A stretch of DNA of 64,000 bases from a bacterium (GTDB lineage Bacteria > Actinomycetota > Acidimicrobiia > Acidimicrobiales > Bin134): the NCBI GenBank assembly GCA_026708015.1, contig JAPOVT010000003.1, forward strand, positions 124,001-188,000, in the 5' to 3' direction. Within the stretch, counting starts at the first letter, position 1, and each line of letters starts with the position of its first letter. The notes under the pieces are model-generated. The model made no database searches and had not been told where the DNA came from. It was given only the letters and a program-made list of their open reading frames with translations. This document shows, one piece after another, positions 6,858-21,822 of this stretch. Made by a program: the position numbers and the translations under genes.

Positions 6858-7838
6858 TTAGGCCGGTCTGGTTGCCCAAGAGGCCAGGCTGCCTTCGATA
6901 GAGCGGGCGAGAGGCGAGAGGCGGGCTTGAACCAGGCCGGGAGGGCCGACGAGGCACTGGACCGCGGTCATGCGGGTGTGACGCAGTACGGGCAGCCGCA
7001 TCCCCCTTACGTCGGCGCCCTCGATGCCTAATGCCGCCGGCAGTCGTTGGCCCAGAATGCTGGCCAAGCGCTGGCCGCCGGGGGAGACGAACCCCTCGGT
7101 GGCAAAATAGGCCACTCGGCATTCTGCTTCCTCAGATGGGAGCAACCCCAGGTACACGTCCACTTCAAGTCGATTGGCCTCGTCTACTCGTTGGGACTCG
7201 GGCCAGTCGCAAGCCTCGCTGACGGTCGCCCCCGACCGCCGCAGACCGGTGGCCAATTCTCCGGCCACCGCGGCCATTGTGTTCGATGATGCGATCATGA
7301 TGTGCTGTTCGGTCAGCCGGCGAGGGGTTCGCTGGAGCTTGGCCCGCTCCCGAACCGTCGCCACCGTGGCCGGGGTGACTCTGGCTGACATGCGCAGCAA
7401 CGCCGCGGTGGTCTCCGGTCCGCACACCGCATCGGCCACCAATCCGCTGTTGAGCTGGAATTCCTCAACCGCACCGGCGGTATCGGGTCCAAATATCCCG
7501 TCCACCCGGCCCGCATCGAATCCCATCGAACCGAGCCGAAGCTGCAACTCGGCCACGTCGTCGCCCCTCAGCATGGGCTGGCTCGAAAAGAGGTTGCGGT
7601 CGCCCAGTGCCCAGCTGGCTTCTTGCAGTGCAGTCCAGGTGTGCGGTCCGCAGATCCCGTCGACGCTAAGACCGCGGCTGGCTTGGAAGTCGGCGACGGC
7701 GGCTGCGGTAGAGGCGTCGAAGATCCCGTTTGCCGAAAGGGCCAGTGCAAAGCCCGCAGTTGCCAGCTTCTGCTGCAAGGCAACGACGTCGTCGCTCTCG
7801 TCGCCTCGCTTGAGGGTAGGGGGGTGGTAATCGGCCAA
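6858..7838 (-). CDS. cwlM: CwlM-like cytoplasmic pseudo-amidase with two PG-binding domains
   Basis: 326 residues without signal peptide or membrane segment. Two PG_binding_1 domains (about 8-70 and 88-150, each with a DGI-type turn and GP[HE]T motif) precede an Amidase_3-like fold (about 178-320). The zinc ligands expected of N-acetylmuramoyl-L-alanine amidases are not visible: there is no DPGHGG-type motif, VDVYLGLL stands where SIHAN is usual, and CLVGP replaces the VELGF-type Glu. Position between parB and trxA equals mycobacterial cwlM, which is known as a kinase-controlled activator of MurA rather than a hydrolase. A TTG start at 7838 with GGAG about 9 nt upstream is chosen. A regulatory role is inferred. 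Confidence 0.85.
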   Translation of the reverse strand: MADYHPPTLKRGDESDDVVALQQKLATAGFALALSANGIFDASTAAAVADFQASRGLSVDGICGPHTWTALQEASWALGDRNLFSSQPMLRGDDVAELQLRLGSMGFDAGRVDGIFGPDTAGAVEEFQLNSGLVADAVCGPETTAALLRMSARVTPATVATVRERAKLQRTPRRLTEQHIMIASSNTMAAVAGELATGLRRSGATVSEACDWPESQRVDEANRLEVDVYLGLLPSEEAECRVAYFATEGFVSPGGQRLASILGQRLPAALGIEGADVRGMRLPVLRHTRMTAVQCLVGPPGLVQARLSPLARSIEGSLASWATRPA

Positions 7839-7888
7839 TTTGTGCGCTCCTGCTGCGCCCCCCGCAGATTACGAGCGTGGGTGGACAA

Positions 7889-8218
7889 TCAAAAGGCGAC
7901 TTCGCCGATCTCCTGGAGCAGCTGTTGCTTGCCCTTGGCGCCGACGATCCGCTTGGCCGGTTCTCCGTCTTTGAACACGATCAACGTGGGAATGCTCATA
8001 ACTTGATAACGCAGCGCCACGTCTTGGGCGTCATCCACGTTGAGCTTGGCCACGCTGATCACGCCAGCCTTCTCGACCGCGATCTCATCGAGAATCGGGG
8101 CGATCATCTTGCAAGGGCCGCACCACTCAGCCCAGAAATCGACCACGACCGGCAACTCGGCGCTGCCGATGACCTCGTCGAATGTCTCGTTGGTGAGCGT
8201 GGCGATGCTCTCTGCCAT
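7889..8218 (-). CDS. trxA: Thioredoxin
   Basis: 109 residues with the active site WCGPC (Cys33 and Cys36) and the cis-Pro segment SIPTLIVFKDG. It is a cytoplasmic disulfide reductase re-reduced by the adjacent TrxB. It follows trxB in the same direction, separated by a 225-bp spacer that is largely filled by an inverted-repeat element. It lies 50 bp upstream of cwlM. Confidence 0.97.
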   Translation of the reverse strand: MAESIATLTNETFDEVIGSAELPVVVDFWAEWCGPCKMIAPILDEIAVEKAGVISVAKLNVDDAQDVALRYQVMSIPTLIVFKDGEPAKRIVGAKGKQQLLQEIGEVAF

Positions 8219-8283
8219 CTTTGAGCGTCCCTTCGTTCGGTGCGGTCGGGGAACGGTTAGCCTATCAGCGACCCTTCGAGCTT

Positions 8284-8445
8284 AGTGATCCGTCAGCGAA
8301 TTTGCTCGGCGTCCTGCTAGGCATCGACGCCCCTCGCTGCGTTGCTCCTCCTTGCCGTACGCTCCGGGTACGGCTGCGTCGGTGCGCCTTGCGAGGAACG
8401 CGCTGCCGTCGCGATCCGCGCAAGCAAATTCGCTGACGGACCACT
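8284..8445. repeat. Long inverted-repeat element between trxB and trxA
   Basis: A 162-bp segment is bounded by 23-bp inverted arms, 8284-8306 and 8423-8445, with a single mismatch; the inner 17 bp (CCGTCAGCGAATTTGCT and its complement) match perfectly. Inside is a second hairpin, GCCGTAC-7 nt-GTACGGC (8353-8373), and partial complementarity between 8338-8350 and 8391-8401. The outer arm overlaps the trxB stop codon. It could be a REP/MITE-like palindromic element or a folded RNA controlling trxA expression. No clear target duplication is seen. Confidence 0.75.
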
Positions 8446-9430
8446 ATCCGTGTCCGGCGGACTCCAGCCAGCGCTCGGCGTCGATGGCTGCCATACAGCC
8501 TGACCCCGCCGCGGTAACCGCCTGGCGGTAATAGTCATCCTGCACGTCGCCACAGGCGAAAACCCCCTCGATCTCGGTGCAGCTGGAGTCGGGCTCGGTT
8601 ACCAAATACCCGTTCTCTTTGCGCTTCAGATGTCCCTCGAACAAGTCGGTATTGGGGCGGTGGCCGATGGCGATGAACAACCCGGTCACGTCGAGCACGG
8701 AAGTCTCTCCGGTGACGGTGTTCTGCACTTCGACGCCGGCCAGCTTTTGGTCGCCTTGAATATCGGTTACCACGTTGTTCCACAGAAATTCGATGCGGTC
8801 GTTGGCGAACGCCCGGTCTTGCATTATCTTTGAAGCCCGCAATTCGTCTCGTCGGTGTATGACCGTTACTTTCGATGCAAACCGCGTTAAAAAGGTGGCT
8901 TCCTCCATGGCGGAATCGCCCCCGCCCACCACGGCGATGTGCTGATCCCGGAAGAAGAAGCCGTCGCAGGTGGCGCAGGTGGACAAGCCGTGGCCGATCA
9001 GCCTCTCCTCGGCCTCGAGGCCGAGCATGATCGACTGGGCCCCGGTGGACACGATCACCGCCCAGGCCCGGTAAGTAGGCTCGGAGGCAGTCGGGTCACC
9101 GACCCACACGCCGTGGGGTGGGCCCGAAAAATCGACCCGGGTGACCTTGTCGGTGAGCATCTCAGCGCCGAATCGCTGAGCTTGCTCTCGGAACTTGATC
9201 ATCAGCTCCGGGCCCATCACCCCGTCGGGAAACCCGGGGTAGTTCTCCACGTCGGTGGTGAGCATCAATTGGCCACCGGGCTGGTCGCTGGTGGAGGACG
9301 GCTCGCCTTCGATGACCAGGGGAGCAAGGTTGGCTCGGGCCGAGTAGACGGCCGCCGTCAGCCCAGCCGGGCCCGAGCCGACGATGATCACATTGCGGAT
9401 GCCCTGCTCCGATGTTGAGGAGTTGGTCAT
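8444..9430 (-). CDS. trxB: Thioredoxin-disulfide reductase
   Basis: 328-residue FAD/NADPH flavoenzyme reducing thioredoxin. The FAD motif GSGPAG is at 18-23, the redox pair CATC at 152-155 and the NADPH motif GGGDSAMEEA follows. The C-terminal GVFACGDVQDDYYRQAVTAAGSG is typical. The ATG at 9430 (GAGG about 8 nt upstream) is chosen over a longer frame because it overlaps the upstream gene's stop as ATGA and gives family length. The terminal TAG lies inside the arm of the inverted-repeat element. Confidence 0.96.
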   Translation of the reverse strand: MTNSSTSEQGIRNVIIVGSGPAGLTAAVYSARANLAPLVIEGEPSSTSDQPGGQLMLTTDVENYPGFPDGVMGPELMIKFREQAQRFGAEMLTDKVTRVDFSGPPHGVWVGDPTASEPTYRAWAVIVSTGAQSIMLGLEAEERLIGHGLSTCATCDGFFFRDQHIAVVGGGDSAMEEATFLTRFASKVTVIHRRDELRASKIMQDRAFANDRIEFLWNNVVTDIQGDQKLAGVEVQNTVTGETSVLDVTGLFIAIGHRPNTDLFEGHLKRKENGYLVTEPDSSCTEIEGVFACGDVQDDYYRQAVTAAGSGCMAAIDAERWLESAGHG

Positions 9431-9756
9431 GAAGCTCGCCTCGACCAGGCCAAGGCACCAAGTGACACAAACAACAGGCCGAGGATCCCGTGGGCCGCCC
9501 AAGCCCTTCCGGTAGCTACCTCTAGTCCTCGCACCGCGGCAATTATGCCCAGCACCAGCACGATGATCAGGGGAAACACCCCAAAAATGAGATAGGCGAA
9601 CAGTCGGCTGACGTTGATTACCGGCCCGGTGGTCACATCGCGGACCTTGTCCACGGCATTGACGACGGCATCAGCGGCCTGCTCAGGCCAGTCCTCAGAC
9701 AGCCCTAGCATCGAAGCGGTGGTTGGGTCTTCCTTAGGCTCAGAGGCTTTAGCCAT
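9427..9756 (-). CDS. Small two-TM membrane protein upstream of trxB
   Basis: 109 residues. The acidic N-terminus (KASEPKEDPTTASM) is followed by two hydrophobic segments (about 52-73 and 86-102) and a short basic tail WSRRAS. I do not recognise a named family. Its stop overlaps the trxB start by 4 nt, so it is co-translated with trxB; a role at the membrane linked to redox or to the adjacent sigma operon is possible but unproven. Confidence 0.8.
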   Translation of the reverse strand: MAKASEPKEDPTTASMLGLSEDWPEQAADAVVNAVDKVRDVTTGPVINVSRLFAYLIFGVFPLIIVLVLGIIAAVRGLEVATGRAWAAHGILGLLFVSLGALAWSRRAS

Positions 9757-9814
9757 AGAACCTCAGACTACCCCCGAGGTGTGTCATTTCCGATGTTGTG
9801 GATGGGGGGCGGGG

Positions 9815-10630
9815 CTATTCGAGCCAGTCGAAGAAGATGTGCTCATTGTGCAGCGCGCATTCGGGCGGCGGAGTCGACTCTATGAGTTGCAGGTCGCTCT
9901 CGGCGAGGTACAGAGAAACCTGGACTTCGAATTCGTCTACCAATGCATCAAATCTGGTCAGGAGTTCACGGCCCTCTACGGGGAACTGGTGAAACAACGG
10001 ACACCCCATGAGATCGGTATCGGTGGTTTCGTCAAGCCTTTCGGTGTCCTGAGCACCTATGAGTTCTTCGGCGAGTAGCAGCGCGTAGTCGCCAAGTTCG
10101 GCCGCGGTTTCAAACACCAAGAGGGCTTCGCCCGATGTCGGTGCGACTTCTAGCTCATCGGCCATCATCGGCTCGGGTTCGCCTGAGTCTTCCGACGGGG
10201 AGTCAGCGGCGTAACCGTCGTCCATCGCTGGCGCTGAGGCCGAGTCGTCGTCGCCGGCGAATTCGTCACCCTGCCGTTCAAATATGGTCACACCCACCAC
10301 CGCAATGGCCGCAATCACCGCAGCGGCCGCCAGAATCACCCTGGCCTGGGGGGGAATGGCCCGCAGCCGCCGCCGGGCCGTATCCATCGAAACCACTGGG
10401 GCCCGGTGATTCAGCGCCTGGGCAATCATCTGGTCCCGCACTTCGTCGGAAGGCCCTTCCACTGGTGCGGCCATCAGATCCCGCACCGCCCGGAGTTCCT
10501 CCACCAGAGCTTGCATGCGAGCATCGCTCTCCACCAGGGCGGCCTCTTCTGGCGTGGCTTCCCCGTCCAGATAGGCGGAGGCCAACTCGTCCATTTCCTG
10601 TGGGGTCAGATCGCCGCGTTCGTCGCTCAT
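9815..10630 (-). CDS. Membrane-anchored anti-sigma factor (RsmA/SigM partner position)
   Basis: 271 residues from ATG 10630, which overlaps the sigma gene stop as ATGA. The N-terminal cytoplasmic part (DLTPQEMDELASAYLDGEATPEEAALVE) has the anti-sigma-domain pattern. One membrane helix lies at about 94-114 (ARVILAAAAVIAAIAVVGV), followed by an acidic, low-complexity extracytoplasmic region and an ALL-rich C-terminal domain. No HxxxCxxC zinc motif is seen. Its position between the ECF sigma gene and trxB equals the anti-SigM gene of Mycobacterium. It is expected to hold the sigma factor at the membrane until a signal releases it. Confidence 0.87.
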   Translation of the reverse strand: MSDERGDLTPQEMDELASAYLDGEATPEEAALVESDARMQALVEELRAVRDLMAAPVEGPSDEVRDQMIAQALNHRAPVVSMDTARRRLRAIPPQARVILAAAAVIAAIAVVGVTIFERQGDEFAGDDDSASAPAMDDGYAADSPSEDSGEPEPMMADELEVAPTSGEALLVFETAAELGDYALLLAEELIGAQDTERLDETTDTDLMGCPLFHQFPVEGRELLTRFDALVDEFEVQVSLYLAESDLQLIESTPPPECALHNEHIFFDWLE

Positions 10631-11250
10631 GGTTTCTCCCCAGTGTGACGTTGGCCGGGGTCCTCTGGGTTCCCGCTCAGCACTTCGGCCAAGCGTCGGC
10701 GCCCGCGGGAAATACGAGATCTCACCGTTCCGGGAGGAATGTCCATCTCCTGGGCAATCTCCTCGTAGCTCATGCCCAGCTGATCGCACAGCACCAGAGG
10801 CACTCGGAATGACCCGGGAAGTTGAGCCAGGGCTGATTCAATGTCGAGTCGATCGGCCACCGATTCAGCCACCGGCCGCTCGGCAGCAGCCAAGGGCTGT
10901 TCCTCCACCGCGGTCGGCACTGGCCGCCGACCCCGCCGCCGCAATTCGTCCAAACAGGCGTTGACCACCACCCGGTGCATCCAGGTGGTGAACTTGGAGC
11001 GCCCATCGAAGCGGTCGATGCGCCGCACCAGGGTGATGAGCGCCTCCTGGGTGGCGTCCAGGACATCGGCTTCGTTGCCGGCCAGCCGTCGGCAGATGGC
11101 ATAGACCCGGTTGTAGTGCCGACGCAATAGGGCATCGAATGCGGCCTGGTCGCCCTCTTGGGCTTTTTTCACCAGATCTGTGTCGTCAGTCGCGCCCCTG
11201 ATGCCCTGAGGGTACCCAGCCTCCGACCCTGGCTGGTTGCACTTTGACAA
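10627..11250 (-). CDS. sigM: ECF RNA polymerase sigma factor, SigM-like
   Basis: 207 residues with sigma region 2 (AFDALLRRHYNRVYAICRRL, then DVLDATQEALITLVRRIDRF and FTTWMHRVVVNACLDELRRR) and region 4 (ALAQLPGSFRVPLVLCDQLG, then YEEIAQEMDIPPGTVRSRISRGRRRL). The gene order sigM, anti-sigma, (small gene), trxB, trxA, cwlM matches the mycobacterial SigM locus, which supports the symbol. Start ATG at 11250 is the outermost; the real start could be a little inside the non-conserved first 20 residues. Autoregulation through the gap shared with the divergent lipoprotein gene is likely but not shown. Confidence 0.88.
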   Translation of the reverse strand: MSKCNQPGSEAGYPQGIRGATDDTDLVKKAQEGDQAAFDALLRRHYNRVYAICRRLAGNEADVLDATQEALITLVRRIDRFDGRSKFTTWMHRVVVNACLDELRRRGRRPVPTAVEEQPLAAAERPVAESVADRLDIESALAQLPGSFRVPLVLCDQLGMSYEEIAQEMDIPPGTVRSRISRGRRRLAEVLSGNPEDPGQRHTGEKP

Positions 11251-11319: not shown

Positions 11320-12717
11320 ATGTACCGCGTCAACCGCATTTCAACCAGGCCGAAAAACCACATCCGGACCTTCATTTTTTTAGCGCTGCTCAGCATGATG
11401 TTCGTGCTGCTCGGTGCCTGCAATGCTGGAAACGACGACGACGCCGGCGCAAGCATGGCTGCACCCGCTGATGACATGGCCGCGCCAGCAATGGTGGAAA
11501 GCAGCTCCCCGGATTCGGCGCTCCCAGAATCTCAACCAGCGGAAGAAGCGGCCAGCGAGGAAATCGCGATTGTTCAAACCTCCGGCGACGACGGCGGCTT
11601 GGCCGTGCCCACCGCCCTGACTCCCGCCGATCTGGGCCGCGACATTATCTACACCGCCGCGATCTCGGTACAGGCCGATGATGTGGAAGCAGCCAGCCGG
11701 GAGGCGGTGGCCATCGTGCAGGGGCTGGGCGGCATTGTGTTCTCCCAGAACACGCGAACCGAACCCACTCCCCGCACCGACATCACCTTCAAGGTGCTGC
11801 CCCAAAACTTCTCCACCGCCCTTGAACGGTTATCGGGAGTAGGCAAGCTGGTCGACCAGTCCATCACTTCTGACGACGTGACCGAGATCATCGTCGATCT
11901 GAGAAGCCGCATCATCACCGCCGAGGCCAGCGTGGACCGCCTCCGGAACTTCCTTCAAGAGGCCACCGATCTCGAAGACGTGGCCGAACTCGAGCGAGAG
12001 CTGCTCGACCGGGAGACCACCCTGGAGCGGCTGCGGGGTCAGTTGCGCACCTTGGAGGACCAGGTTGATCTGGCCACCATCACGCTCACCATCACCCAGT
12101 CGCCCACCGTTTTGCCCGACACCGGAATCTTGGTCACCGCCTGGGTGTCCGAAGATGCAGACGACCCGTGCCTGGGCGTGCAGAACATCACCGTGGAGCC
12201 CGAGGCCGAGGTCTATCTATGCCTGGAAGTGGAGAACGCCGGCACCTCGGCGCTCACCGATGTGGAGGTGAGCACGCGAAACCTGCGCCTCAACCTGGAC
12301 AATTTCCGACCCGCCCAGGGCACCTTCAACCGCATCGAGCCCAACGAGCTCATGGCCGCGGTGTTGGAGCTGCCTATCGAAGAGGGCCGACTGGCCGGCC
12401 GGGTGGCAACCCGAGGACTGCCCATCGAGCTGGAAGTCACCGCCACCCCGGTCAACTTCGACGGCACCGCCCTTGACGAGGTGTGGGGCGATTCGGTGGT
12501 GTGGGTTCGTGTGGACACCGACGATGCCCTGCCCGGGTTCGGCGACTCCGTCTCCGACGGCGCCAGCGGCGTGGTGGCCGTGTTCAGCGTGATCCTGATC
12601 GTGGTCGGCGTGCTGCTGCCCTTCCTACCCATCATCGCGGCCATCGCCGCCCTGATCTGGTGGATCCGCCGCCGGCGCAACCGCAAAGCGGAGTCGCCGC
12701 CTCCGCTGGCTATCTGA
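11320..12717 (+). CDS. DUF4349-type lipoprotein with C-terminal membrane anchor
   Basis: 465 residues. The signal peptide ends in lipobox LLGAC with Cys34, followed by an Ala/Asp/Ser-rich linker. A DUF4349-like domain (about 105-260) includes YTAAISVQADDVEAASREAV, ITFKVLPQNFSTALERL and a long coiled coil with DLEDVAELERELLDRETTLERL. A beta-rich region, one membrane helix (about 415-445) and a basic tail RRRRNRK follow. The family is envelope-associated with poorly known function. It is divergent from the sigM pair and could be its target. It overlaps the convergent LysM-BTAD gene by 8 bp. Confidence 0.85.
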   Translation: MYRVNRISTRPKNHIRTFIFLALLSMMFVLLGACNAGNDDDAGASMAAPADDMAAPAMVESSSPDSALPESQPAEEAASEEIAIVQTSGDDGGLAVPTALTPADLGRDIIYTAAISVQADDVEAASREAVAIVQGLGGIVFSQNTRTEPTPRTDITFKVLPQNFSTALERLSGVGKLVDQSITSDDVTEIIVDLRSRIITAEASVDRLRNFLQEATDLEDVAELERELLDRETTLERLRGQLRTLEDQVDLATITLTITQSPTVLPDTGILVTAWVSEDADDPCLGVQNITVEPEAEVYLCLEVENAGTSALTDVEVSTRNLRLNLDNFRPAQGTFNRIEPNELMAAVLELPIEEGRLAGRVATRGLPIELEVTATPVNFDGTALDEVWGDSVVWVRVDTDDALPGFGDSVSDGASGVVAVFSVILIVVGVLLPFLPIIAAIAALIWWIRRRRNRKAESPPPLAI

Positions 12718-15622
12718 ATAACGAACCAGATGACATCAACTGCTCGTAGAGTTCCAGCAGTTCGGGACCGATGAGGTCGTCGGACTCGGGCTGATTGTTT
12801 TCCCGCTTCAGCAAGTGCACTAGCTCCGCCATGATCTGGCGCACCTCAGTGGGGTTTTCGGCGGCAGCCATCAGCCGTAGGCGGTAGCACTGTTCGCAGA
12901 CCCCTATTAGCTGGAGGCTGGTCGAGACCGCCCTCTTGGCGCTGTCGGTATCACCAACCTCCAAGTACCTTTTGGCCAATTCGTGGGCGGCAGTATCCAC
13001 CAAACAATCGATATGGGTACGCAGTCCGAAGTCAGCCCATCGGAACATGTCGCCGGCACCGCCGGTAAAGGGGGTTCCCCGTACCAAGTCAAGAGCAGAT
13101 TGAAGCTGTTCTCGACCGCGCTCGCCAACATCCTTGCGGGCGGCGGATATGAGTGCTTCAAACCTGCCGACGTCAGTCCCCACTCCTGCCCGAAGCTGAT
13201 AAATCCCCTTGGCGCTCACTCTGGGCATATACAAATCACCGTCCTCGTTGGTCCCTAAGGCCTTGCGAGCTCGGCTCACCGTGTTGGCCAGAGTGGACTC
13301 AGATGGAGGTTCGTCGGAGGGCCAAATATGGGTTCGCAATTGGTCTCGATCAGCTCCTTCAGGATGAAAGGCCAGATAGGTAACCAGATCCAGGGCTCGG
13401 CGGGAAGTAAACGGATGTGCAGCTCCCAACACTTCTATGGTTCCCAGCACCCGGACTTCAATGTCGACAGTCAATAGATCGATTGCGGATGTATCGTGCC
13501 TGACTTTGATCGGTTGCGGTTCTGGCGGCACAGTCAGGGCCACTCCCTCAGTGTCTTTGGCTGAAGAGGCCAATTCAGCAAAGGCGGCGATGGCTGCATC
13601 GGGCAAACCGTGGGTTTCAAGTTGAAGTCCGATGGGTTGAAGCAGCAGGCCGTGTTCATCGAGTTGTCCCGTCCATGAAGCGCCGTCGAGTCCGTGGGCT
13701 ACGACGCTGACCGATGAGTCACATGCCTCGAGAAGTTCAATAGCGTCTCCCCGACTCAGTTGGTGGGGGACCAAAGCCACCATTGGATGAGAGAAGTCGC
13801 CATTGCCTCCGATTCTGCTGCGGTCGACGGGAGGATGGCTTCCTAGCAGTGCCTGATTCTGACGTTGGTGGCGCTTGACTCGCTCGGTGGCAGAAGCTAG
13901 ATCGGATACGTGCTCGACCCGTTCCAACACTGTGAGCTCCTGTCCGAACCCCACACACAAGACGGTGAGATCGTCAGCCAAATGGCTGCTGGCCAGCTGC
14001 ATTGCCATGGCCGCGCAAAGTTCGATGATCGCTTGGTGGTTGCCTTCCAGGTTCAGAGTGGCCATGTGTTCAAGGTTCAGCAGGAACTCGTCGCCGTCTT
14101 TCTTGCCCACGGTGGCCAGAGTGGGCAGAGGAGCGGGCACATCATCGGATTCAGCTAGGAGTAGCTCCAGTCCGGGGTCCTTCGGCAGGGTCCAAGTCGT
14201 ACCGTCTTCTTCGATGTGAAATCCGGGTGGAGCCTCTTCTGGAGAGCTGAGGTGAATCGACACACTGCTTGAGTCCATCGTCACTCCGATGATGCTGGGT
14301 GGGGGATTGTCAGCAATTCGAGAAGACATGATCCGCAATGACGCGTCCAAGAAGAGAGCTGCGTCGGGATCGGAAGCAGCCTGCAATTGCTGGTCCAGCT
14401 GAACGGCGCCATCCGACGGCGGCACGGGCATTCGACCAGTTGGCAATCGGCGGCGCTGAGTCCGTCGAAGTCGCGCCAGTACCCATCCGAGGCTGCTGGC
14501 GAAGACGCCGAGACCACCGACTGCAAACATTGCCTCCCTGTTGAGGGCTGACTGGCGGTCTTTGCTTTCGGAGGGGACGACGGCCACCACGGTTGGTCTT
14601 GCCGTGGCGTAGGCCGATACGGGGGCGACATGGTCGACGGTATCCGCCAAGGGCTGGACTTGGAGCGTGGTGTAGCCGATGGTCTCCGGAATGGGTTGGG
14701 CCGGAGGCAAAGCCTCAGTCGGCTTGGAATCAACCGCTGGGATCTCGAGCTGCCATCCAGGCAGGATGACTTCTGGGTCTTGAATGATGTTTTGGTTGGA
14801 GCTGAAGATGTCAACCCACCTTTCGGGACCATCGAGATGCTGAGCCGCCAATCCCCACAAGGTGTCGCCTTCTTGGACTGTGATAAAGGAATGGTCGAGT
14901 TCTGCGGCAGCGACGTCAGCCTTCTGACTCCCCTCGGAATTCTCGGCAATTCTGAATTCGGCGGCACTCGGAGCATGTGAATCAGCGGGCATGACAAGCT
15001 CCCAACCTGCTTGAAGTTGGCTTGGGTCTGAAAGCGACCCTCCGTCTGTCTGGGCTTGCCCCTTGTTCAAGACGAACACCTCAGTCCATCTGTTCGGATC
15101 TCCCAGGTACCGCTCAGCCACCTGGCGCAGGCTGTCGTTTCGCTCCACGGTGTGGGTGAGGGGTCCTGCATCTGCGGGCTCTGCATCTATCTTGAATGTT
15201 GTTGGGGCAAGTAGCTCTTGGTTGTCGGCCGTTGCGATTCCTGGGTGTTGCAATGAGAAGGCGACCAGGAGGGTCGTCCCCATGATTTGGGCTGAAAAGC
15301 GCTGAATGAACGAAGGCAAGAGGGCAACTCGAGGGGCAACTCGGCCTCGAAGGTGAGCCCACGCTTCTACCCCCACCCCGGCAAACAAAAGGGACCAGAG
15401 AACCCACACTACGACCGAGATTGACTTCCAAATGGTAGAAGGGGGAACGGCGCCTGTCTTGATGGTTGTGACGATGTCCGAGCCCGAGGGGATCCCTTGG
15501 GGAAGTGGCCAACCCACTCCAAGGATCAGAAGTATCGGAACGCCAATCAGCAATCCGACCAATAGCACGGCTGACGCCAAACCGCGGACAGTGTCCCCTC
15601 GGGGATTTTCATTCAGGTTCAT
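12710..15622 (-). CDS. Membrane-anchored LysM-BTAD (SARP-type) regulator of the Tad cluster
   Basis: 970 residues. Hydrophobic segments near 15-37, 66-85 and 112-130 come first. Two LysM-like domains follow at about 157-210 and 245-296, with VERNDSLRQVAERYLGD and VQEGDTLWGLAAQHL. Another membrane helix (about 365-385, FAVGGLGVFASSLGWVLA) precedes a cytoplasmic-side region. From about residue 710 there is a winged-helix plus BTAD domain (VRVLGTIEVLGAAHPFTSRRALDLVTYLAF, RAGVGTDVGRFEALI). BTAD/SARP proteins are transcription regulators; LysM binds peptidoglycan, so envelope-to-DNA signalling is inferred. The start overlaps the TadG-like gene's stop as ATGA, making it last in the pilus operon. 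Confidence 0.85.
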   Translation of the reverse strand: MNLNENPRGDTVRGLASAVLLVGLLIGVPILLILGVGWPLPQGIPSGSDIVTTIKTGAVPPSTIWKSISVVVWVLWSLLFAGVGVEAWAHLRGRVAPRVALLPSFIQRFSAQIMGTTLLVAFSLQHPGIATADNQELLAPTTFKIDAEPADAGPLTHTVERNDSLRQVAERYLGDPNRWTEVFVLNKGQAQTDGGSLSDPSQLQAGWELVMPADSHAPSAAEFRIAENSEGSQKADVAAAELDHSFITVQEGDTLWGLAAQHLDGPERWVDIFSSNQNIIQDPEVILPGWQLEIPAVDSKPTEALPPAQPIPETIGYTTLQVQPLADTVDHVAPVSAYATARPTVVAVVPSESKDRQSALNREAMFAVGGLGVFASSLGWVLARLRRTQRRRLPTGRMPVPPSDGAVQLDQQLQAASDPDAALFLDASLRIMSSRIADNPPPSIIGVTMDSSSVSIHLSSPEEAPPGFHIEEDGTTWTLPKDPGLELLLAESDDVPAPLPTLATVGKKDGDEFLLNLEHMATLNLEGNHQAIIELCAAMAMQLASSHLADDLTVLCVGFGQELTVLERVEHVSDLASATERVKRHQRQNQALLGSHPPVDRSRIGGNGDFSHPMVALVPHQLSRGDAIELLEACDSSVSVVAHGLDGASWTGQLDEHGLLLQPIGLQLETHGLPDAAIAAFAELASSAKDTEGVALTVPPEPQPIKVRHDTSAIDLLTVDIEVRVLGTIEVLGAAHPFTSRRALDLVTYLAFHPEGADRDQLRTHIWPSDEPPSESTLANTVSRARKALGTNEDGDLYMPRVSAKGIYQLRAGVGTDVGRFEALISAARKDVGERGREQLQSALDLVRGTPFTGGAGDMFRWADFGLRTHIDCLVDTAAHELAKRYLEVGDTDSAKRAVSTSLQLIGVCEQCYRLRLMAAAENPTEVRQIMAELVHLLKRENNQPESDDLIGPELLELYEQLMSSGSLFR

Positions 15623-16080
15623 TGGTAATCTCCTCTGTCTATTCCCTGTATGGCACGGGCACTGGCGTGGCCAGTCACCCGACGTGACTCAATGCCGAGC
15701 ATTGAGAGCACATGCAGTGGCTGGGTCAGCCACACGGTTACGGAGACCGTGTCCCCCCGCACCGAGATCGACCATTCATCGTGCTGGTCGAGAAATTCCG
15801 CTGCCGCGATTCGCGCTTGAATTGGGTCAACAGTGATGTTCCCGTCCCTTTGGTAAATGGATTCGGTCGAAATCGCCTGAGCGCTGGCTCTGGCTGCCTC
15901 CAGAGCCAAGGAGGAGGCGGCCCGTTTGGCGTCCAAGATTCGGGCGCCGTCGTAAGCCAGTCCTCCCAGCATGACCAACACCGCAGCCAGTACGACAAGA
16001 ACCACTGTCACCTGCCCCCATTCCCGGTCCCTGGGTGGCCGGACAGGGCCAAGAATCCTTCGGAGGGCGCGCCGGTGCAC
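15619..16080 (-). CDS. TadG/TadE-like pilus assembly protein
   Basis: About 153 residues from GTG 16080, 2 nt after the upstream stop; a longer open frame to 16191 would overlap the neighbour by over 100 bp. After a basic N-terminus comes WGQVTVVLVVLAAVLVMLGGLAYDGARILDAKRAASSLALEAARA, the usual TadG-like hydrophobic helix plus amphipathic helix. These pseudopilin-like proteins belong to Tad/Flp pilus machines. It is in the operon just before the LysM-BTAD gene. Confidence 0.8.
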   Translation of the reverse strand: MHRRALRRILGPVRPPRDREWGQVTVVLVVLAAVLVMLGGLAYDGARILDAKRAASSLALEAARASAQAISTESIYQRDGNITVDPIQARIAAAEFLDQHDEWSISVRGDTVSVTVWLTQPLHVLSMLGIESRRVTGHASARAIQGIDRGDYQ

Positions 16081-16082
16081 AG

Positions 16083-16532
16083 CTAGGAGTCCCCGCTTCG
16101 AAACCGGTCCACCACTGAAACGGAGTCGGCGGACACTATTCGGCTGCCGGGCATACCGGGCACGGTCAGATCTGACAGCCTCACCACACACGAGACCTGG
16201 ATGTGAACTTGCCCTCCTGGTCGAAGGTCAAGCTCTAGGACACGAACCTGGGGCCCGCTATGGCAACCCATTTTCGAGTAATCCAGATTGGCTTCCGCAG
16301 TCGTCGTTGCCGCTGCCTGTGCAGTTGAGACTGTCTGGGTTTGTGAGGCAGCTCGAGCCGCGCTGCGAGCCGCGGAAGTCAGCTTGCTCTCTATTACCCC
16401 GAGTCGGCCGGCGGCCACGACGAAGAACAGAAGCATGGCCATCATTGGGGTCAGAATCACCAGACCCACCACACTGCTGCCTCGTTCAGCGGCTTCATTT
16501 CGCCGCCGACACCACCACAAATCGGTCATCAT
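16083..16532 (-). CDS. TadE-like pseudopilin
   Basis: 149 residues. An RGSSVVGLVILTPMMAMLLFFVVAAGRLG segment forms the TadE-type N-terminal helix, followed by KLTSAARSAARAASQ. The C-terminal part is beta-rich with two Cys (GCHSG and VSCVVRL). It overlaps the preceding TadE-like gene by 4 bp. It is probably a minor pilin of the Tad pilus. Confidence 0.82.
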   Translation of the reverse strand: MMTDLWWCRRRNEAAERGSSVVGLVILTPMMAMLLFFVVAAGRLGVIESKLTSAARSAARAASQTQTVSTAQAAATTTAEANLDYSKMGCHSGPQVRVLELDLRPGGQVHIQVSCVVRLSDLTVPGMPGSRIVSADSVSVVDRFRSGDS

Positions 16533-16906
16533 CTTCGATACTCAGGGACGAAGACCTCTCGGGGTCCCGCTGAAGTGGAAAAAACGGTGGGGCTATAGCC
16601 AGGGATCAGCGACTTCACAGTGGCCTGCACGGTCACCGACATCCGCCATGGATTTGCTTGCACAGAGACGTCCACATTGGACAGCAGATTCCCCGCGCTA
16701 TTTCCAATGACCGAATGCACGGCCGAGTGAACTGCCTCCTCGGTGCCCAATACGCCTTGACCGGCTAGGGCGCCGTCTTGGGCAGCGGCATCAACTAGGG
16801 CCTGGGCATGAAACACCAAAGCCGCTTGGACGACTACAAAGATCAAGAGCATGGCAATGGGCACGACCAAGACGGTGGTCGTCACTTCCCCGCGCTCGCA
16901 TCGCAT
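16529..16906 (-). CDS. TadE-like pseudopilin
   Basis: 125 residues from ATG 16906. It begins MRCERGEVTTTVLVVPIAM then LLIFVVVQAALVFHAQALVDAAAQDGALAG, a classic TadE helix with a Glu shortly before the hydrophobic stretch. The open frame extends upstream to 17149, but that part overlaps the Flp pilin gene and has no family similarity. It is 26 bp downstream of the pilin gene. Confidence 0.82.
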   Translation of the reverse strand: MRCERGEVTTTVLVVPIAMLLIFVVVQAALVFHAQALVDAAAQDGALAGQGVLGTEEAVHSAVHSVIGNSAGNLLSNVDVSVQANPWRMSVTVQATVKSLIPGYSPTVFSTSAGPREVFVPEYRR

Positions 16907-16932
16907 TCGTAGGTCTGCCCCACCGTTGTTGA

Positions 16933-17139
16933 TCAGCTGATTTTGCTGGTCTGGCCGGAGATGAAGGTGGTGATGACTACTCCAGCAGCCACCGCCGCGG
17001 CGACCAAAACCGCGATGATGATTACCGTTGAGGTCACATCTCCTCGTTCGGCCTGCCACGCGTGGCGGACTCGATCCTCGAATTTTGCCGCCGCCGCGTT
17101 CAACAGTTCGTAGAGCTTGGTAGTTGCTCTCATCGTCAT
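16933..17139 (-). CDS. Flp-type pilin candidate (type IVb, Tad)
   Basis: 68 residues. The N-terminal cytoplasmic part (LYELLNAAAAKFEDRVRHAWQAERGDVTST) is followed by a hydrophobic helix (VIIIAVLVAAAVAAGVVITTF) and the short tail ISGQTSKIS. Size, single helix and position between tadC and tadE genes fit the major Flp pilin. A canonical G-x4-EY processing site is not present; ERGDVTS may be the divergent equivalent. A start at the second ATG (17133) is equally possible. Confidence 0.78.
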   Translation of the reverse strand: MTMRATTKLYELLNAAAAKFEDRVRHAWQAERGDVTSTVIIIAVLVAAAVAAGVVITTFISGQTSKIS

Positions 17140-17214
17140 CTCCTGCCAAGTGTCAGTTGGGGCGAATCAATACGCCGATAGATCCAGGTCTCGCGGCGTG
17201 ATTCCCAGAGACAT

Positions 17215-18093
17215 TCATGAGCTGAGAATGGCTGCGATTGCCGGATACCCGATAAGTCCCAGAAAACCCGAGAACATGAGAACCACTGGTAGTGACATGT
17301 GCTCAGTAGCCTGCTGAGCTTCAGTTTCTGCTTCGCTCAGCGCTCGTTCTCGCAATCCCCGGGCCTTGACGTGCAAGGACGACCGCACTCGGGACCCAGA
17401 AGTGCCGGCCAGCATCAGCCATGCCGCCAACTCCTCTAGCTCTGGCGATCCAAGATCTCCACCGAGCCTCGCTAGAGCAGTCCATGGCGGTTCATTCGCC
17501 AACTGAGTTTGCCGCAAGGTCTTTTGGATTTCAGCAAATCCCCAAGCAGTGCCCTGATCTGCCGCGTCAGCCAAAGCCCGTTCGATGCCCGAGCCTCCCG
17601 ACAAGTGGAGACCCACTAAGTCCAAATAGGTGCTGAGGTGATTCCGCAGTTCTCTTCGCCGCTTTCGGGCTCTCTCTCGCAGCGACAAGTCTGGAACGAA
17701 AAAGAAGAGACCTCCGGTTGCAACCGATGCCAGGACCACGAGCCCCGGAGAAACCCACGCTCGGGCCAACCAAGTGACGATCCAGACTCCCACGGGCAAT
17801 CCCATCCCCAGGACCAGCATCCCGAGTTTTGCCAGCGCCAGTGCTTCCGGGCTCTGCCCAACTGCTCGGAGGTCGCGCTCAAGTCGTTGCCCTCGAAATG
17901 CCAAACGGCCGAATGCCTGCGCAGCAGCACGGCCTATTCGCTCCCGGCGCGTTTTCGACCGGTTGGTGAGGTCACTTGGTTGACCTAGATCGCTCAGTCG
18001 AATGTGCAAGGGCTCACGCGGGGGAAACAGCCCCCACAGGGCGACAGCAAGACCAAGTCCAATCATTGCGCCCATAGCCAGGCCAACGGTCAT
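17215..18093 (-). CDS. tadC: Tad pilus inner-membrane platform protein TadC (T2SS-F family)
   Basis: 292 residues with a T2SSF domain. LRNHLSTYLDLVGLHLSGGSGIERALADAA is the characteristic motif, with hydrophobic helices near the N-terminus, at about 88-108, 115-135 and at the C-terminus (SLPVVLMFSGFLGLIGYPAIAAIL). TadC pairs with TadB as the membrane platform on which the TadA ATPase acts. Its start overlaps tadB's end by 4 nt. Confidence 0.88.
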   Translation of the reverse strand: MTVGLAMGAMIGLGLAVALWGLFPPREPLHIRLSDLGQPSDLTNRSKTRRERIGRAAAQAFGRLAFRGQRLERDLRAVGQSPEALALAKLGMLVLGMGLPVGVWIVTWLARAWVSPGLVVLASVATGGLFFFVPDLSLRERARKRRRELRNHLSTYLDLVGLHLSGGSGIERALADAADQGTAWGFAEIQKTLRQTQLANEPPWTALARLGGDLGSPELEELAAWLMLAGTSGSRVRSSLHVKARGLRERALSEAETEAQQATEHMSLPVVLMFSGFLGLIGYPAIAAILSS

Positions 18094-18977
18094 TGGGAGA
18101 ATTCGCTGGTTGGGCTTGGGACAACAGGAACTCGATGCACCTCCAGAATTCGGGGCGGGCTGTTGAACCGGCTCATTCTCTCTAGGGCAAACCCTGAGCC
18201 GATGAATAGCCCACCGATTACGGCAAGCGCCAACTGCCCTGAGGCGGTATCAAAGGGTGCTAGGTAGGTTCTGCTGAAGCCCACCATGCAAATGCAGAAC
18301 ACAGCCACCACTCCGGCAATCAAGCGGGCGGAAGCAAGTTGGCGAGCTCGGGAGGCTTCGATCCGCAAACGCATTGACACTTCTTGACGAGTGTTCTCAG
18401 CGAGTTCGGCCAGCGAATCCTGCAATGAACCCACTTGGTTGGTTGCCGCCAGCCCAAGCGATACCGCAACTGTGTCGGCAACCGCGTGATCCACCTCATC
18501 GGCAAATCTTCCCAGGGCAACAGGAAGGGGTTCCCGTTCAGCCCGGGCAGCCAACTGCCTTACAGGAGTCCGTAGTACGGATGGCGCGGATTCTGCGGTG
18601 GCCTTCACAGTCTCGATCAATCCCGATGCCGCGCTGATTGTGTCCCTCAGCATCTCCACCCAGGTAGCCAGGGCATTCATACGGTCAATTTCTCGGCTTC
18701 GCCTTGCTTTGGCCCGCAGCAGCGTTGGCGAGAGGAAGGCAGCAATGCCCACGACGAAACCGGCGACCAACCATTCGGTTACCACGAATGCTGCTACAAA
18801 CCCGGCAGTGGCGATGACCAAGCGGGCCGCTAGCGGCATCAGGGATCCTTGAAACCAAGTTCCCAGGCCTCCTCGGCGTGTACTCGGGCTAGACCAGAAG
18901 CCGCGCACCCCCATGGTTGCAGTGAATACCCCAGCGCCCAATGCCGCCCCCAGCAGCGCTCCGATCAGCGAGGACAT
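18090..18977 (-). CDS. tadB: Tad pilus inner-membrane platform protein TadB (T2SS-F family)
   Basis: 295 residues with two N-terminal membrane segments. The T2SSF motif reads NALATWVEMLRDTISAASGLIETVKATA, with a second half LAELAENTRQEVSMRLRIEASRARQLASA before C-terminal helices. It partners TadC in the platform. It overlaps the tadA end by 13 nt and tadC's start by 4 nt, showing tight operon structure. Confidence 0.88.
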   Translation of the reverse strand: MSSLIGALLGAALGAGVFTATMGVRGFWSSPSTRRGGLGTWFQGSLMPLAARLVIATAGFVAAFVVTEWLVAGFVVGIAAFLSPTLLRAKARRSREIDRMNALATWVEMLRDTISAASGLIETVKATAESAPSVLRTPVRQLAARAEREPLPVALGRFADEVDHAVADTVAVSLGLAATNQVGSLQDSLAELAENTRQEVSMRLRIEASRARQLASARLIAGVVAVFCICMVGFSRTYLAPFDTASGQLALAVIGGLFIGSGFALERMSRFNSPPRILEVHRVPVVPSPTSEFSQ

Positions 18978-20269
18978 TTGAAATCCTCATGGGCCAACTC
19001 CCAATCCGGAGAAGAAAGATCAAGCCCAGCGTTGGCCAATCGGTGCTGGGTGGAGGCTTGCAAGCCGGCGCACGGCCGGGCCATATCCGATCCCTTGGCT
19101 GCGAATACCTCGACACTGGTCACATCACCTGACGAAGCACCAGTGACCTCCCGCACTGAATTCACCCGACGCTGGCCGTTGCATGCTCTACTCAGATGGA
19201 CCACAAAGTCGATGCTCTCCGCGATCATGCGGTTGCTTGCTTCTACCGGGATGTGCTCGGTGGACCGCAGAGCGTAGGTGGCAATTTTGCTGAAAGCCGC
19301 TTGGGAGGAGTTGGCGTGAATCGTACACATGGATCCATCGTTTCCCGCCGACAGGGCCGAGAGCATGTCCACCACTTCGGGACCCCTAACCTCGCCCACG
19401 ATCAACCGATCGGGCGACATGGCCAACGCGTTGCGCACAAGCTGCTGCATGGTGATCTCTCCAGATCCCTCGATGTTGGCCGTGCGGGTTTCCAATTCAA
19501 TTACGTCACGATGCCGGTCGGGATGGGCGGATAGGCCCAACTCCAATCGATCTTCAATAGTGACCAGTCGCTCATCGGGATCACAGGCATTCAAGAGGGC
19601 GCGCAACATCGTCGTCTTGCCTGCGTTGGTACCACCGCACACGATGATGCTCATTCGTGCCCTTACCGCAGCATTCAGGAAGCCCATCAGCGTTTCGTTG
19701 AATGTTCCCAGTGCGCAGAGGTCGGCCAACGTGACTTGCTCGTGGCGATGTCGACGAATCGAAACCGACGGACGCTCCGATACCGCCATTACTGCGTTAA
19801 GGCGGGATCCGTCGGGCAGTCTCAAGTCCAGAAACGGGTTGGCAATATCGAACCGCCGTTCGTTGCGGCCCAGCCGGGCGGCTGCCCTGCGTATGAGAGC
19901 GATCAGCTCATTGTCCGATTCGGCAACCGCTCCAAAGCGACGCTTCTTGCCCCCTGCATAGTGGACCCAAACTGTGTCACAGCCGTTCACGCTCACGTTC
20001 TCGACCGATTCGTCAGCTAGCAATCGATCGATGGGCCCGAGTCCGAACAACGTGGACAGAACCTCGTCGGTGATTTGAGACTCTTCAGCTTTGTCGAGTG
20101 GAGGCAAGAATGCCCTGGCTCGGTCCGCGGCGATGACGTCAAGCGCCTCAGCGATGAATTGCCTGGCCAGGGCCTTTTGCTCTACCCGATTTCCGAGCCG
20201 GCTTGACTCGGCTTGCTCTAGTTCGTGGGTGACCAGGGCAAGCACGCGATCGAGGAGAGCAGATGCCAC
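18965..20269 (-). CDS. tadA: Tad/Flp pilus secretion ATPase TadA (CpaF)
   Basis: 434-residue secretion ATPase that powers pilus polymerisation. It contains the N-terminal domain (EVLSTLFGLGPIDRLLADESVENVSVNG), Walker A CGGTNAGKTTMLRAL, Asp box (VTIEDRLELG), Walker B (RLIVGEVRGPEVVDML) and the His box (GSMCTIHANSS). GTG at 20269 shares one base with the tadZ-like stop (TAGTG) and is preferred to a longer frame that would run through the neighbouring gene. It reads ASALLDRVLALVTHELEQ at the N-terminus. Confidence 0.93.
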   Translation of the reverse strand: MASALLDRVLALVTHELEQAESSRLGNRVEQKALARQFIAEALDVIAADRARAFLPPLDKAEESQITDEVLSTLFGLGPIDRLLADESVENVSVNGCDTVWVHYAGGKKRRFGAVAESDNELIALIRRAAARLGRNERRFDIANPFLDLRLPDGSRLNAVMAVSERPSVSIRRHRHEQVTLADLCALGTFNETLMGFLNAAVRARMSIIVCGGTNAGKTTMLRALLNACDPDERLVTIEDRLELGLSAHPDRHRDVIELETRTANIEGSGEITMQQLVRNALAMSPDRLIVGEVRGPEVVDMLSALSAGNDGSMCTIHANSSQAAFSKIATYALRSTEHIPVEASNRMIAESIDFVVHLSRACNGQRRVNSVREVTGASSGDVTSVEVFAAKGSDMARPCAGLQASTQHRLANAGLDLSSPDWELAHEDFKCPR

Positions 20270-21015
20270 TATGCCGCTTCTCGACTGCCCGCCGAGGCTT
20301 GTAGGCGGAATTGGATTCGGTGTACGAGTTCGGTGAGCGTTCTCCACAACAACAGGCGACGATGGCGCTGGTTGAATGGAAATCCGCCGACAAGTGCCTG
20401 AGTAACTCTCGGCTCGTGAGCCATGACACCTAACAGGTCGAGTTGAGATGCCTTTGCCATCTCCGTAGGCGGGTAGGGCCGGTCGCCAATGCAAACCAAA
20501 GCGGTTGGGATGTCCTGGGAGAGCACGCTTCGGGCCTGATGGACCAGGGGGACAAGCTGGTCGAATCTCGGTTGAGCGACCAGCACGAGGAGATCGCAGC
20601 GTTTGATGAGCTCGGTAGTGGGGGAGTGAAGCCGCACGCGACCCACGTCGACAACCGCGTCGATGTCGTCAAGATGGCCAAGGCCGTCTGCCAATCGCTT
20701 TGCTAGATGGGAGAGGACCCGGGTGGTTGTTTCGCCGCATCCCGGAGCAACGAGAGCGGGCAAGTGCCCGGCTAGCGGTTGGCAACTGGCTTGCAGCCGA
20801 TTGATCGTCAATTCATGTCGAGCGGTTCCCGAAAGCTCCACCAATGAGGGCGCGGAAGCCAACCCGAATCGAGCGGCCAGTACCCCGCCGTCGCCATCAG
20901 CTTCCACCAAGACAGCTCGTCGCCCGGTGGTCGGTTCCCATGACTGTCCGAGTCCGACCGACAAGTTGGTCACGCCTGGACTGGCCTTGGCGCTGCCCAC
21001 CGCGATGATGCTCAT
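20269..21015 (-). CDS. TadZ/CpaE-like MinD-family ATPase with altered P-loop
   Basis: 248 residues of SIMIBI/ParA-MinD fold. The N-terminus MSIIAVGSAKASPGVTNLSVGL aligns with deviant Walker A loops, but the invariant GKT is replaced by GVT. AVLVEADGDGGVLAARFGL and the switch-like VVDVGRV are recognisable. In Tad systems TadZ/CpaE localises the machine to the pole. Related actinobacterial loops of the KGSPGVTT type are known. ATP binding is therefore plausible but uncertain. It lies between the SAF-domain gene (4-nt overlap) and tadA. Confidence 0.8.
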   Translation of the reverse strand: MSIIAVGSAKASPGVTNLSVGLGQSWEPTTGRRAVLVEADGDGGVLAARFGLASAPSLVELSGTARHELTINRLQASCQPLAGHLPALVAPGCGETTTRVLSHLAKRLADGLGHLDDIDAVVDVGRVRLHSPTTELIKRCDLLVLVAQPRFDQLVPLVHQARSVLSQDIPTALVCIGDRPYPPTEMAKASQLDLLGVMAHEPRVTQALVGGFPFNQRHRRLLLWRTLTELVHRIQFRLQASAGSREAA

Positions 21016-21722
21016 GGAACTGCTCCGGCGACCGTTAGCTCTCGGATTGGAGGATTGGCTGCTGTCGAGGATTCCTCGGGCATGAGAATGAGTCGCAGTT
21101 CGCGGTTGGCTGCTGAATTGCTGATCCGCACAGCGTCGTCAGCTGGGACCGATAGCGACACAAACAAGGCGTCTTGGCCCGAATCCAGCACTTCGCTTAC
21201 CTCGGCCACTGTGGCCCGGACTGTTGCAACTGCCGCTCCGGACAAGGGGGACAGATTCGTATGGTTGCGATCTGGTGCCACGTATTGATCGCGTTGTCCG
21301 CTGACGGTCACCACTCCGACCGGTTGGCCGGGACCAAGTTGGGCGATCGGGTATTCGCCCGGGTGGAGAACCGCACCGACTATCGCCATATTTCCATCGA
21401 TTGGCGAACTCGAGGACAAGAGCCCAGGGTGGAGGATTGTCCCTTCGGGAATGGCGGCCCGCACAGTGCGTCCCACCACGGAATGCAAGTCGGCCATTGG
21501 CACGAAATCCGCGCCTTGTCCACTGGCCATTTCCACCGCCCGCAGGTCGTCGACCTCAACCGTCGATCCGGTGGGTATGTCTCGACCGGCCACTGCGACC
21601 GCGGTGCGATTGCTGAGCGAGGATGCCCACAGGGCAAAGACGATTGCCGCGGTGAGGGTGACGGTCAGCCCGAGTATCACCCAGGGAAGTTGACGCTGAC
21701 GATCCTCGCTTGCCATCCGCAT
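21012..21722 (-). CDS. SAF-domain Flp pilus assembly protein, CpaB/RcpC-like
   Basis: 236 residues. One membrane helix (about 14-35) is followed by a SAF domain, TAVAVAGRDIPTGSTVEVDDLRAVEM, and VVGRTVRAAIPEGTILHPGLL. CpaB/RcpC is the periplasmic Tad component. This is the first gene of the leftward Tad cluster; the 100-bp gap before it (21723-21822) must hold the operon promoter, unless it is read from hpt. Confidence 0.83.
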   Translation of the reverse strand: MRMASEDRQRQLPWVILGLTVTLTAAIVFALWASSLSNRTAVAVAGRDIPTGSTVEVDDLRAVEMASGQGADFVPMADLHSVVGRTVRAAIPEGTILHPGLLSSSSPIDGNMAIVGAVLHPGEYPIAQLGPGQPVGVVTVSGQRDQYVAPDRNHTNLSPLSGAAVATVRATVAEVSEVLDSGQDALFVSLSVPADDAVRISNSAANRELRLILMPEESSTAANPPIRELTVAGAVP

Positions 21723-21822
21723 GGGCTGTTACCGATAAGTCGGGAGGGGAGCCGTCGAGTCGCTCCGATGGCTTCAATCTGCCACACCTCGTTCAGTAAA
21801 GCAAGGTGTATTTCAACTAATT

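Follow-up and report, generated by a model that had tools for sequence, protein, structure and literature searches.

One-component regulators of the ToxR, CadC and TcpP type have a single transmembrane (TM) helix and carry their winged helix–turn–helix (wHTH) at the N-terminus. The polar organizers FimV, HubP and TspA, which are tied to type IV pili, place LysM outside the membrane, joined through a TM segment to a cytoplasmic TPR-like part; to our knowledge FimV has neither a wHTH nor an EccC-like domain. In Gram-positive bacteria, we know of no worked-out route by which Tad pili would signal contact or assembly to gene expression.

What has been described of a protein that unites LysM with BTAD? 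The Cutibacterium acnes plasmid pIMPLE-HL096PA1 encodes PAGK_2369, which is tabulated as ‘LysM, BTAD’ and named TadB (Kasimatis et al. 2013, PMC3666418, Table 2). The excerpts of that paper used here credit a sigma/anti-sigma pair upstream with control of the locus and suggest no function for PAGK_2369. From its place in the locus we infer that this protein is WP_015588743.1. A full-text literature search, whose coverage leaves out most subscription papers, returned no functional study of a LysM–BTAD protein, PMC3666418 being the only relevant item. PMC5696575 mentions neither LysM nor regulators, and a ‘BTAD’ hit in PMC12075869, a paper on Kil/Tad predation, proved to be a journal reference code. 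The databases call the family ‘LysM peptidoglycan-binding domain-containing protein’, after its LysM domain only.

The window analysed here is a stretch of 64,000 nucleotides from an Acidimicrobiia bacterium (GenBank assembly GCA_026708015.1, contig JAPOVT010000003.1, positions 124,001 to 188,000). On its minus strand an open reading frame (ORF) at 12710–15622 begins with ATG and runs stop-free for 970 codons. The order of the encoded parts is three TM helices, two LysM modules, a fourth TM helix, an EccC/FtsK-like domain and a SARP module, as follows.

12710..15622, minus: LysM–TM–EccC/FtsK-like putative pseudo-ATPase–SARP (wHTH plus BTAD) protein, 970 aa (ORF and translation, Pfam, AlphaFold2 model, Foldseek)
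15245..15604, minus: three predicted N-terminal TM helices, residues 7–126; model helices 7–36, 61–91 and 104–125 (hydropathy for TM1 and TM2, AlphaFold2, K+R distribution in 43 relatives)
14735..15160, minus: two LysM modules, predicted extracellular, residues 155–296 (about 155–212 and 245–296; Pfam, profile match, AlphaFold2)
14450..14533, minus: predicted fourth TM helix, residues 364–391, followed by an Arg-rich stretch (hydropathy 364–382, AlphaFold2 helix 372–391, high K+R density after the helix)
13523..14413, minus: EccC-DUF/FtsK-like alpha/beta domain without Walker A, residues 404–700 (profiles, model, VIA-align)
13175..13468, minus: wHTH, residues 719–816, with the recognition helix at about 775–789 bearing S783, R784, R786 and K787 (profiles, AlphaFold2, contact-residue alignments)
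12716..13174, minus: BTAD helical (TPR-like) domain, residues 817–969 (family profile, Pfam on members, AlphaFold2, Foldseek)

The AlphaFold2 model of the full-length protein, built on a 50-row alignment, has a mean pLDDT of 80.5 and a pTM of 0.62; residues 299–364 form a low-confidence, presumably extracellular linker. Foldseek with the whole model places AfsR on top (8k60 and 8hvr, E 5e-7 to 9e-7, TM-score on target approximately 0.7) and also finds EmbR, FtsK motor domains, EccC of ESX-3 and ESX-5 and the coupling protein TcpA. The LysM modules match Kbp and other LysM structures in a profile search. The family profile A4 (residues 716–969, 40 rows) finds EmbR (2fez) at E 2.2e-14 and AfsR (8hvr) at E 1.5e-10 over about 245 of 255 positions, and Pfam calls BTAD on 23 of the 40 family members. 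By this profile and by Foldseek (AfsR, E 5e-7), an OmpR-type wHTH is followed directly by BTAD. On these comparisons we take the SARP/BTAD assignment of the C-terminal region to be correct. ORF, Pfam, family profiles and model together bear out the sequence-only reading, which had put LysM-like domains, membrane helices and a SARP-type wHTH/BTAD on one chain; Pfam and NCBIfam scans found no kinase or receiver family in it. The SARP part has no match in a phage collection.

Could such a protein be a chance gene fusion, or an annotation artefact, beside a pilus operon? By Pfam alone one sees a single LysM, the second module (residues 247–295, E 1.3e-7, above the cut-off), and a Trans_reg_C match below it (residues 741–794, E 3.4e-4), with no BTAD call on the window protein's own sequence. 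Against this, full-length relatives at 22–78% identity have the same architecture and the same operon end. This conservation refutes chance fusion, to which we give next to no credence. The nearest relatives, in Acidimicrobiia metagenome-assembled genomes (MAGs), match over the full length at 77–78% identity, and one fragmentary MAG matches the last third at 92%. The genome has a single copy of the protein; on another contig, its first LysM is weakly matched twice. Contig C28 of the same genome (L002/L003) bears a 1104-aa open frame that contains two or more LysM-like repeats.

On which side of the membrane do the domains lie? Over 43 relatives the density of lysine plus arginine is 0.173 at the N-terminus, 0.051 in loop 1, 0.160 in loop 2, 0.041 after TM3, 0.060 before TM4 and 0.415 after TM4. 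Because of this distribution the positive-inside rule predicts a cytoplasmic place for the N-terminus, for loop 2 and for everything in the C-terminal half, with LysM outside. The SARP module is thus predicted to lie inside the membrane, as the sequence-only reading required, the 0.415 after TM4 comparing with 0.04–0.06 in the outside loops. An AxA motif (PGIATA-DN) after TM3, at residues 126–133 (approximately 15224–15247), resembles a signal-peptidase site. AxA is found in the equivalent, Ala-rich stretch of 38 of the 43 relatives; if the site were cut, the chain from LysM to SARP would hang on TM4 alone.

The sequence-only reading overlooked the domain at about residues 404–700. Folded alone, this region reaches a pLDDT of 90.9. 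Its profile finds EccC (4nh0, E 4.4e-6) and EccC5 (8rin, E 2e-4). VIA-align, which covered the middle domain only and compared it with its own family list, ranks the EccC5 DUF domain (8rin_B) best, at Z 13.0, rmsd 3.8 and 14% identity over 197 aligned residues, with FtsK at Z 12.9. Profile and structure comparison agree on a fold of the EccC/FtsK/HerA P-loop type. The Walker A motif (G-x4-GK[ST]), however, is present in none of the 50 rows, one of which (L077) is a fragment largely missing the region. Because of this absence we consider the middle domain a probable pseudo-ATPase and no active motor.

How much of the DNA-contact surface of a SARP survives? The contacts of AfsR with DNA, including the base-contacting R92 and the phosphate-contacting R94, are taken from excerpts of PMC10936776. 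For the contacts given there, W767, S783, R784, R786 and K787 of the window protein align with AfsR W74, S91, R92, R94 and K95. Counting P79 as well, W74, P79, S91, R92, R94 and K95 are identical, 6 of those 12 contacts as against 20 of 87 positions in the whole wHTH. In the region of the recognition helix R786 is kept in 48 of 50 rows and R784, S783 and W767 in 39 of 50 each. Over the 40 family members the equivalents of S91, R92 and R94 are kept in 75%, 75% and 95%, those of Q48, R87, T88 and K95 in 3%, 7%, 12% (5/40) and 20% (8/40). Among 34 distant rows R786 persists in 32 and R784 in 23; R786 is retained in all eight plasmid proteins, and R784 is replaced by H, N or K in C. acnes and others. 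The claim that the module has DNA-binding residues therefore stands in part: the basic contacts of the helix are largely there (R786, R784), but taken together the contact positions are not significantly more often identical than the remaining positions of the wHTH (permutation p = 0.09). As to RNA polymerase (RNAP), AfsR R59, D71 and R173 are replaced in the window protein's family (40 members), and the position of E76 is acidic in 23 of 40 (D in 18, E in 5), with D in the window protein. These four residues are the contacts that AfsR requires for activation via RNAP; they do not define the SARP family. From the alignments, a basic recognition helix appears to be retained, and AfsR-like activation lacks residue support.

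The gene is the last of ten Tad/Flp genes on the minus strand, confirming its proposed position at the end of a pilus operon, and 4 bp are shared between its start and the stop of the TadE/G-like gene that precedes it. The remainder of the operon and its promoter region read as follows.

15619..16191, minus: TadE/TadG-like minor pilin gene (PF13400 E 4.5e-4, just below cut-off)
16083..16532, minus: TadE-like minor pilin gene (PF07811 E 4.7e-6)
16529..17149, minus: TadE-like gene, ORF limits, coding start probably near 16906 (PF07811 E 2.7e-6, residues 93–127)
16933..17139, minus: 68-aa Flp-pilin-like ORF (size, single hydrophobic stretch and place; no significant Pfam family)
17215..18093, minus: TadC, T2SSF (PF00482 E 2.2e-9)
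18090..18977, minus: TadB, T2SSF (PF00482 E 5.6e-5, just below cut-off)
18965..20494, minus: TadA/CpaF ATPase, ORF limits, the TTG start probably upstream of the true start (PF00437 E 5.4e-41)
20269..21015, minus: gene at the TadZ position (position, and homologues at the same place in relatives; no Pfam family)
21012..21722, minus: SAF-domain CpaB/RcpC-like gene, first of the operon (PF08666 E 4.1e-8; CpaB TIGR03177 E 3.2e-7)
21723..21822, minus: operon promoter/leader with -35-like CTTGCTT, -10-like GGCAGATT and conserved GGAGC...GGCTCC (non-coding alignment of 14 sequences)

One operon thus holds TadA, TadB, TadC, TadE and pilin-like genes together, the pilin being recognized by size and place only. 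A phosphoribosyltransferase (hpt-like) gene, 21823–22380, stands 100 bp upstream of the operon start. At the other end a DUF4349 gene (11320–12717, plus strand) converges on the operon and overlaps the last codons of the LysM–BTAD gene by 8 bp. Further downstream, at 6858–11250 on the minus strand, are an ECF sigma factor, a zf-HC2 anti-sigma factor, a pyridine-nucleotide oxidoreductase and a PG_binding_1 protein. This order resembles what we take to be the sigM-trxB-cwlM order of other actinobacteria, so the cluster is probably not Tad-specific.

Does the promoter region contain a site for the SARP module? Conservation across 14 sequences marks the 100 bp that precede the operon: a -35-like CTTGMTT is followed about 17 bp on by the -10-like GGCAGATT, and the leader carries GGAGC...GCTCC. 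A consensus promoter scan found no sigma-70 site in this gap. We compared 6- and 7-mer direct and inverted repeats with column shuffles of the 14-sequence alignment. Direct repeats of the SARP type, 11 or 22 bp apart, are absent from these 14 promoters (best score 0.58, null mean 0.59), and a SARP box in the operon's own promoter was accordingly rejected. The inverted repeats CGGAGC/GCTCCC (0.81) and ACACCT/AGGTGT (0.77) fall within the shuffled range (maximum 0.85), and the leader hairpin is unexceptional (z -0.87). The composite promoter pattern has one exact occurrence and no second copy in the genome, and hence no regulon is visible.

How widely is the gene linked to Tad pili? We gathered 70 loci, 47 of them with a family ORF of at least 800 aa; of these, 38 have at least 6 kb of upstream sequence. 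Left out were 23 loci: fragments, short soluble wHTH–BTAD proteins, other matches that were weak or of reduced length, and L056, a broken copy beside which all six Tad families are present. At 35 of the 38 loci all six families are found on the same strand, and TadE at 37. The order is SAF-TadZ-TadA-TadB-TadC-TadE, the best hits for SAF and TadZ being swapped in two loci. The exceptions are L073 and L098, with four families each, and L090, with none. Where less than 6 kb lies upstream, some Tad gene was seen at five of nine loci.

Several relatives stand apart from Tad operons. The short wHTH–BTAD proteins of L066, L067, L069, L070, L075, L076, L083, L087 and L088 are near the family, have no predicted TM helix and lie away from Tad genes. 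Nucleotide-sugar-type genes, judged by eye, are close to several of those inspected, and perhaps these proteins form a group of soluble paralogues connected with surface polysaccharides. Two membrane BTAD proteins outside Tad operons, L090 9950–12433 (with LysM) and L094 3901–6594, each adjoin a D-Ala-D-Ala ligase-like gene (by eye, from protein starts); this hints at a branch of the family with a link to peptidoglycan.

On plasmids the gene occupies the same operon end in nine of nine loci examined: those of Brachybacterium, Xylanimonas, Streptomyces pFRL5, Rhodococcus pREL1, C. acnes, Streptomyces alboflavus, Glutamicibacter (with two extra genes in between), S. cellulosae and Streptomyces sp. 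NBC_01456. The S. alboflavus copy (L109 8512–12275) is split into a LysM and a BTAD gene. We rejected this split as proof of an autonomous SARP half, since it is a frameshift with an out-of-frame tail; the break falls inside the pseudo-ATPase domain, and type I-E cas genes adjoin.

Relatives of the LysM–BTAD protein occur in 198 plasmid records, and genes annotated ‘conjugal transfer protein’ lie near the Brachybacterium, Xylanimonas and C. acnes plasmid loci. Might the protein be a degenerate FtsK-like relative that docks DNA, its wHTH holding DNA at the Tad base for uptake or plasmid transfer? The fold of the middle domain, which it shares with FtsK, EccC and the conjugation coupling protein TcpA, would suit such a subunit, as would the requirement for Flp pili in transformation of Micrococcus luteus, according to the excerpt of PMC4322843 used here. 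The lack of Walker A in every row, and hence of a motor, argues against it. So does the window copy, which is chromosomal, between the hpt-like gene and the sigma/anti-sigma/oxidoreductase region, with no transfer genes in the parts examined. Moreover, we know of no coupling protein with a promoter-type wHTH. We regard DNA docking as unlikely.

Is the gene then a general companion of Tad pili? TadA-like ATPases were detected in 241 of 246 genomes of the phylum, and a match to the LysM–BTAD protein (P0001) in 51, some by LysM only. A P0001 match counted as a partner if it shared contig and strand with TadA and lay within 15 kb of it. When the TadA hits of the 246 genomes are ranked, all of the top 15, the window included, have such a partner, as against one of the next 25. 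It is for this reason that we conclude that the LysM–BTAD gene marks one Tad subtype in Actinomycetota. The window's own genome gave three matches to the TadA query, so it probably contains further TadA-like ATPases that lack a LysM–BTAD partner.

What role might the protein play in this subtype? Sequence and model predict four TM helices, an extracellular LysM pair, a cytoplasmic Walker-A-less domain, a complete C-terminal SARP module and a fixed last-gene place. With confidence evenly divided, we favour the reading that it may regulate its own Tad pilus system as a one-component protein tethered to the membrane and anchored in the wall. The LysM pair would bind it to peptidoglycan. Located just beneath the membrane, like the DUF domain in EccC, the pseudo-ATPase domain would dock on the Tad base, at either the TadA ring or the TadB/C platform, and could read there whether the machine is assembled or working. 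The state of the pilus might then alter the exposure or oligomerization of the wHTH–BTAD module, which would bind DNA at the membrane and adjust transcription, kinase-free as in proteins of the ToxR/CadC type; the operon's own promoter would be the first candidate target. More tentatively, this would make the subtype a Tad system with a built-in state reporter, in which a type VII-like pseudo-ATPase reads the pilus base and a SARP module on the same chain passes that state to DNA. If so, pilus and promoter would be linked without kinase, second messenger or sigma factor, phylum-wide, on chromosomes and on plasmids.

The regulator reading is supported by the SARP assignment, the predicted cytoplasmic C-terminus, the arginines of the recognition helix, the linkage to the pilus and the conserved promoter region of the operon. 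It is weakened by the replacement of the RNAP contacts and of several DNA contacts, and by the want of SARP repeats and of a visible regulon. It is weakened, too, by the fixed last-gene place, which in every operon copy would be expected of a part of the machine and is not required of a regulator.

A serious rival is a scaffold that works like FimV or HubP. LysM would anchor the Tad base to the wall, the pseudo-ATPase and the TPR-like BTAD would offer docking surfaces for TadA or TadZ, and the wHTH would be a retained fold with no promoter-specific job. Scaffold and regulator explain the fixed place at the end of this Tad subtype equally well. Over 39 loci the pairwise distances of the LysM–BTAD protein correlate with those of SAF, TadZ, TadB and TadC (Spearman 0.68–0.74) as strongly as these correlate among themselves (0.68–0.76), with only 0.47 for TadA/CpaF; such covariation favours a scaffold. 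The EccC-DUF domain is elsewhere part of a membrane complex, no SARP box was seen, and loss of the RNAP contacts is better explained by a scaffold than by a regulator. LysM matches the pilus protein TsaP at E 0.01, and there is a weak, below-cut-off match to FimV_Cterm (E 0.059), which at 17 residues is no evidence of homology. The arginines R784 and R786, on the other hand, are kept in distant members, which would be unexpected if DNA binding were gone. We hold the scaffold to be a possible, somewhat doubtful explanation.

Under either role the LysM–BTAD gene is co-inherited with a Tad machine on chromosomes and plasmids, the Flp plasmid of C. acnes among them. A scaffold would add to the Tad machines of Gram-positive bacteria a core component not described before, one that reuses folds of type VII secretion and of SARPs. 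A regulator, the reading we put forward, would be a single polypeptide that joins a promoter directly to the cell wall and the pilus base. It is still by inference, as in the sequence-only reading, that we see in the protein a sensor of envelope or pilus with a transcriptional output.

How does the protein compare with known systems? By sequence and fold its closest solved relatives are the SARPs AfsR and EmbR, which likewise have a wHTH followed by BTAD. In AfsR, however, the regulatory domains are C-terminal to the SARP module, whereas here TM helices, LysM and pseudo-ATPase are N-terminal to it, and the RNAP contacts of AfsR are not preserved. The EccC DUF and the FtsK motor domain share the fold of residues 404–700, but the LysM–BTAD protein is without Walker A and without further ATPase modules. 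Like ToxR, CadC and TcpP, it is predicted to tether a cytoplasmic wHTH to an extracytoplasmic domain on one chain with no kinase; CadC is also a weak sequence match (E 0.26, and E 0.016 by the A4 profile). It differs from these in its four TM helices, its wHTH towards the C-terminal end, its BTAD, its LysM and its EccC-like domain. With FimV, HubP and TspA it shares, by prediction, the external LysM, the TM segment and the cytoplasmic TPR-like part; homology with them is unsupported. PAGK_2369/WP_015588743.1 belongs to the same family (profile alignment of 917 columns, probability 100%), in the same operon order and in the same last place. The excerpted text of PMC3666418 mentions neither an EccC-like domain nor the membrane topology of the C. 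acnes protein. The combination of LysM with BTAD was thus already tabulated in 2013; what is new here is the predicted topology, the recognition of an EccC-like pseudo-ATPase, and the findings that the gene is tied to the operon across the phylum and to one group of TadA.
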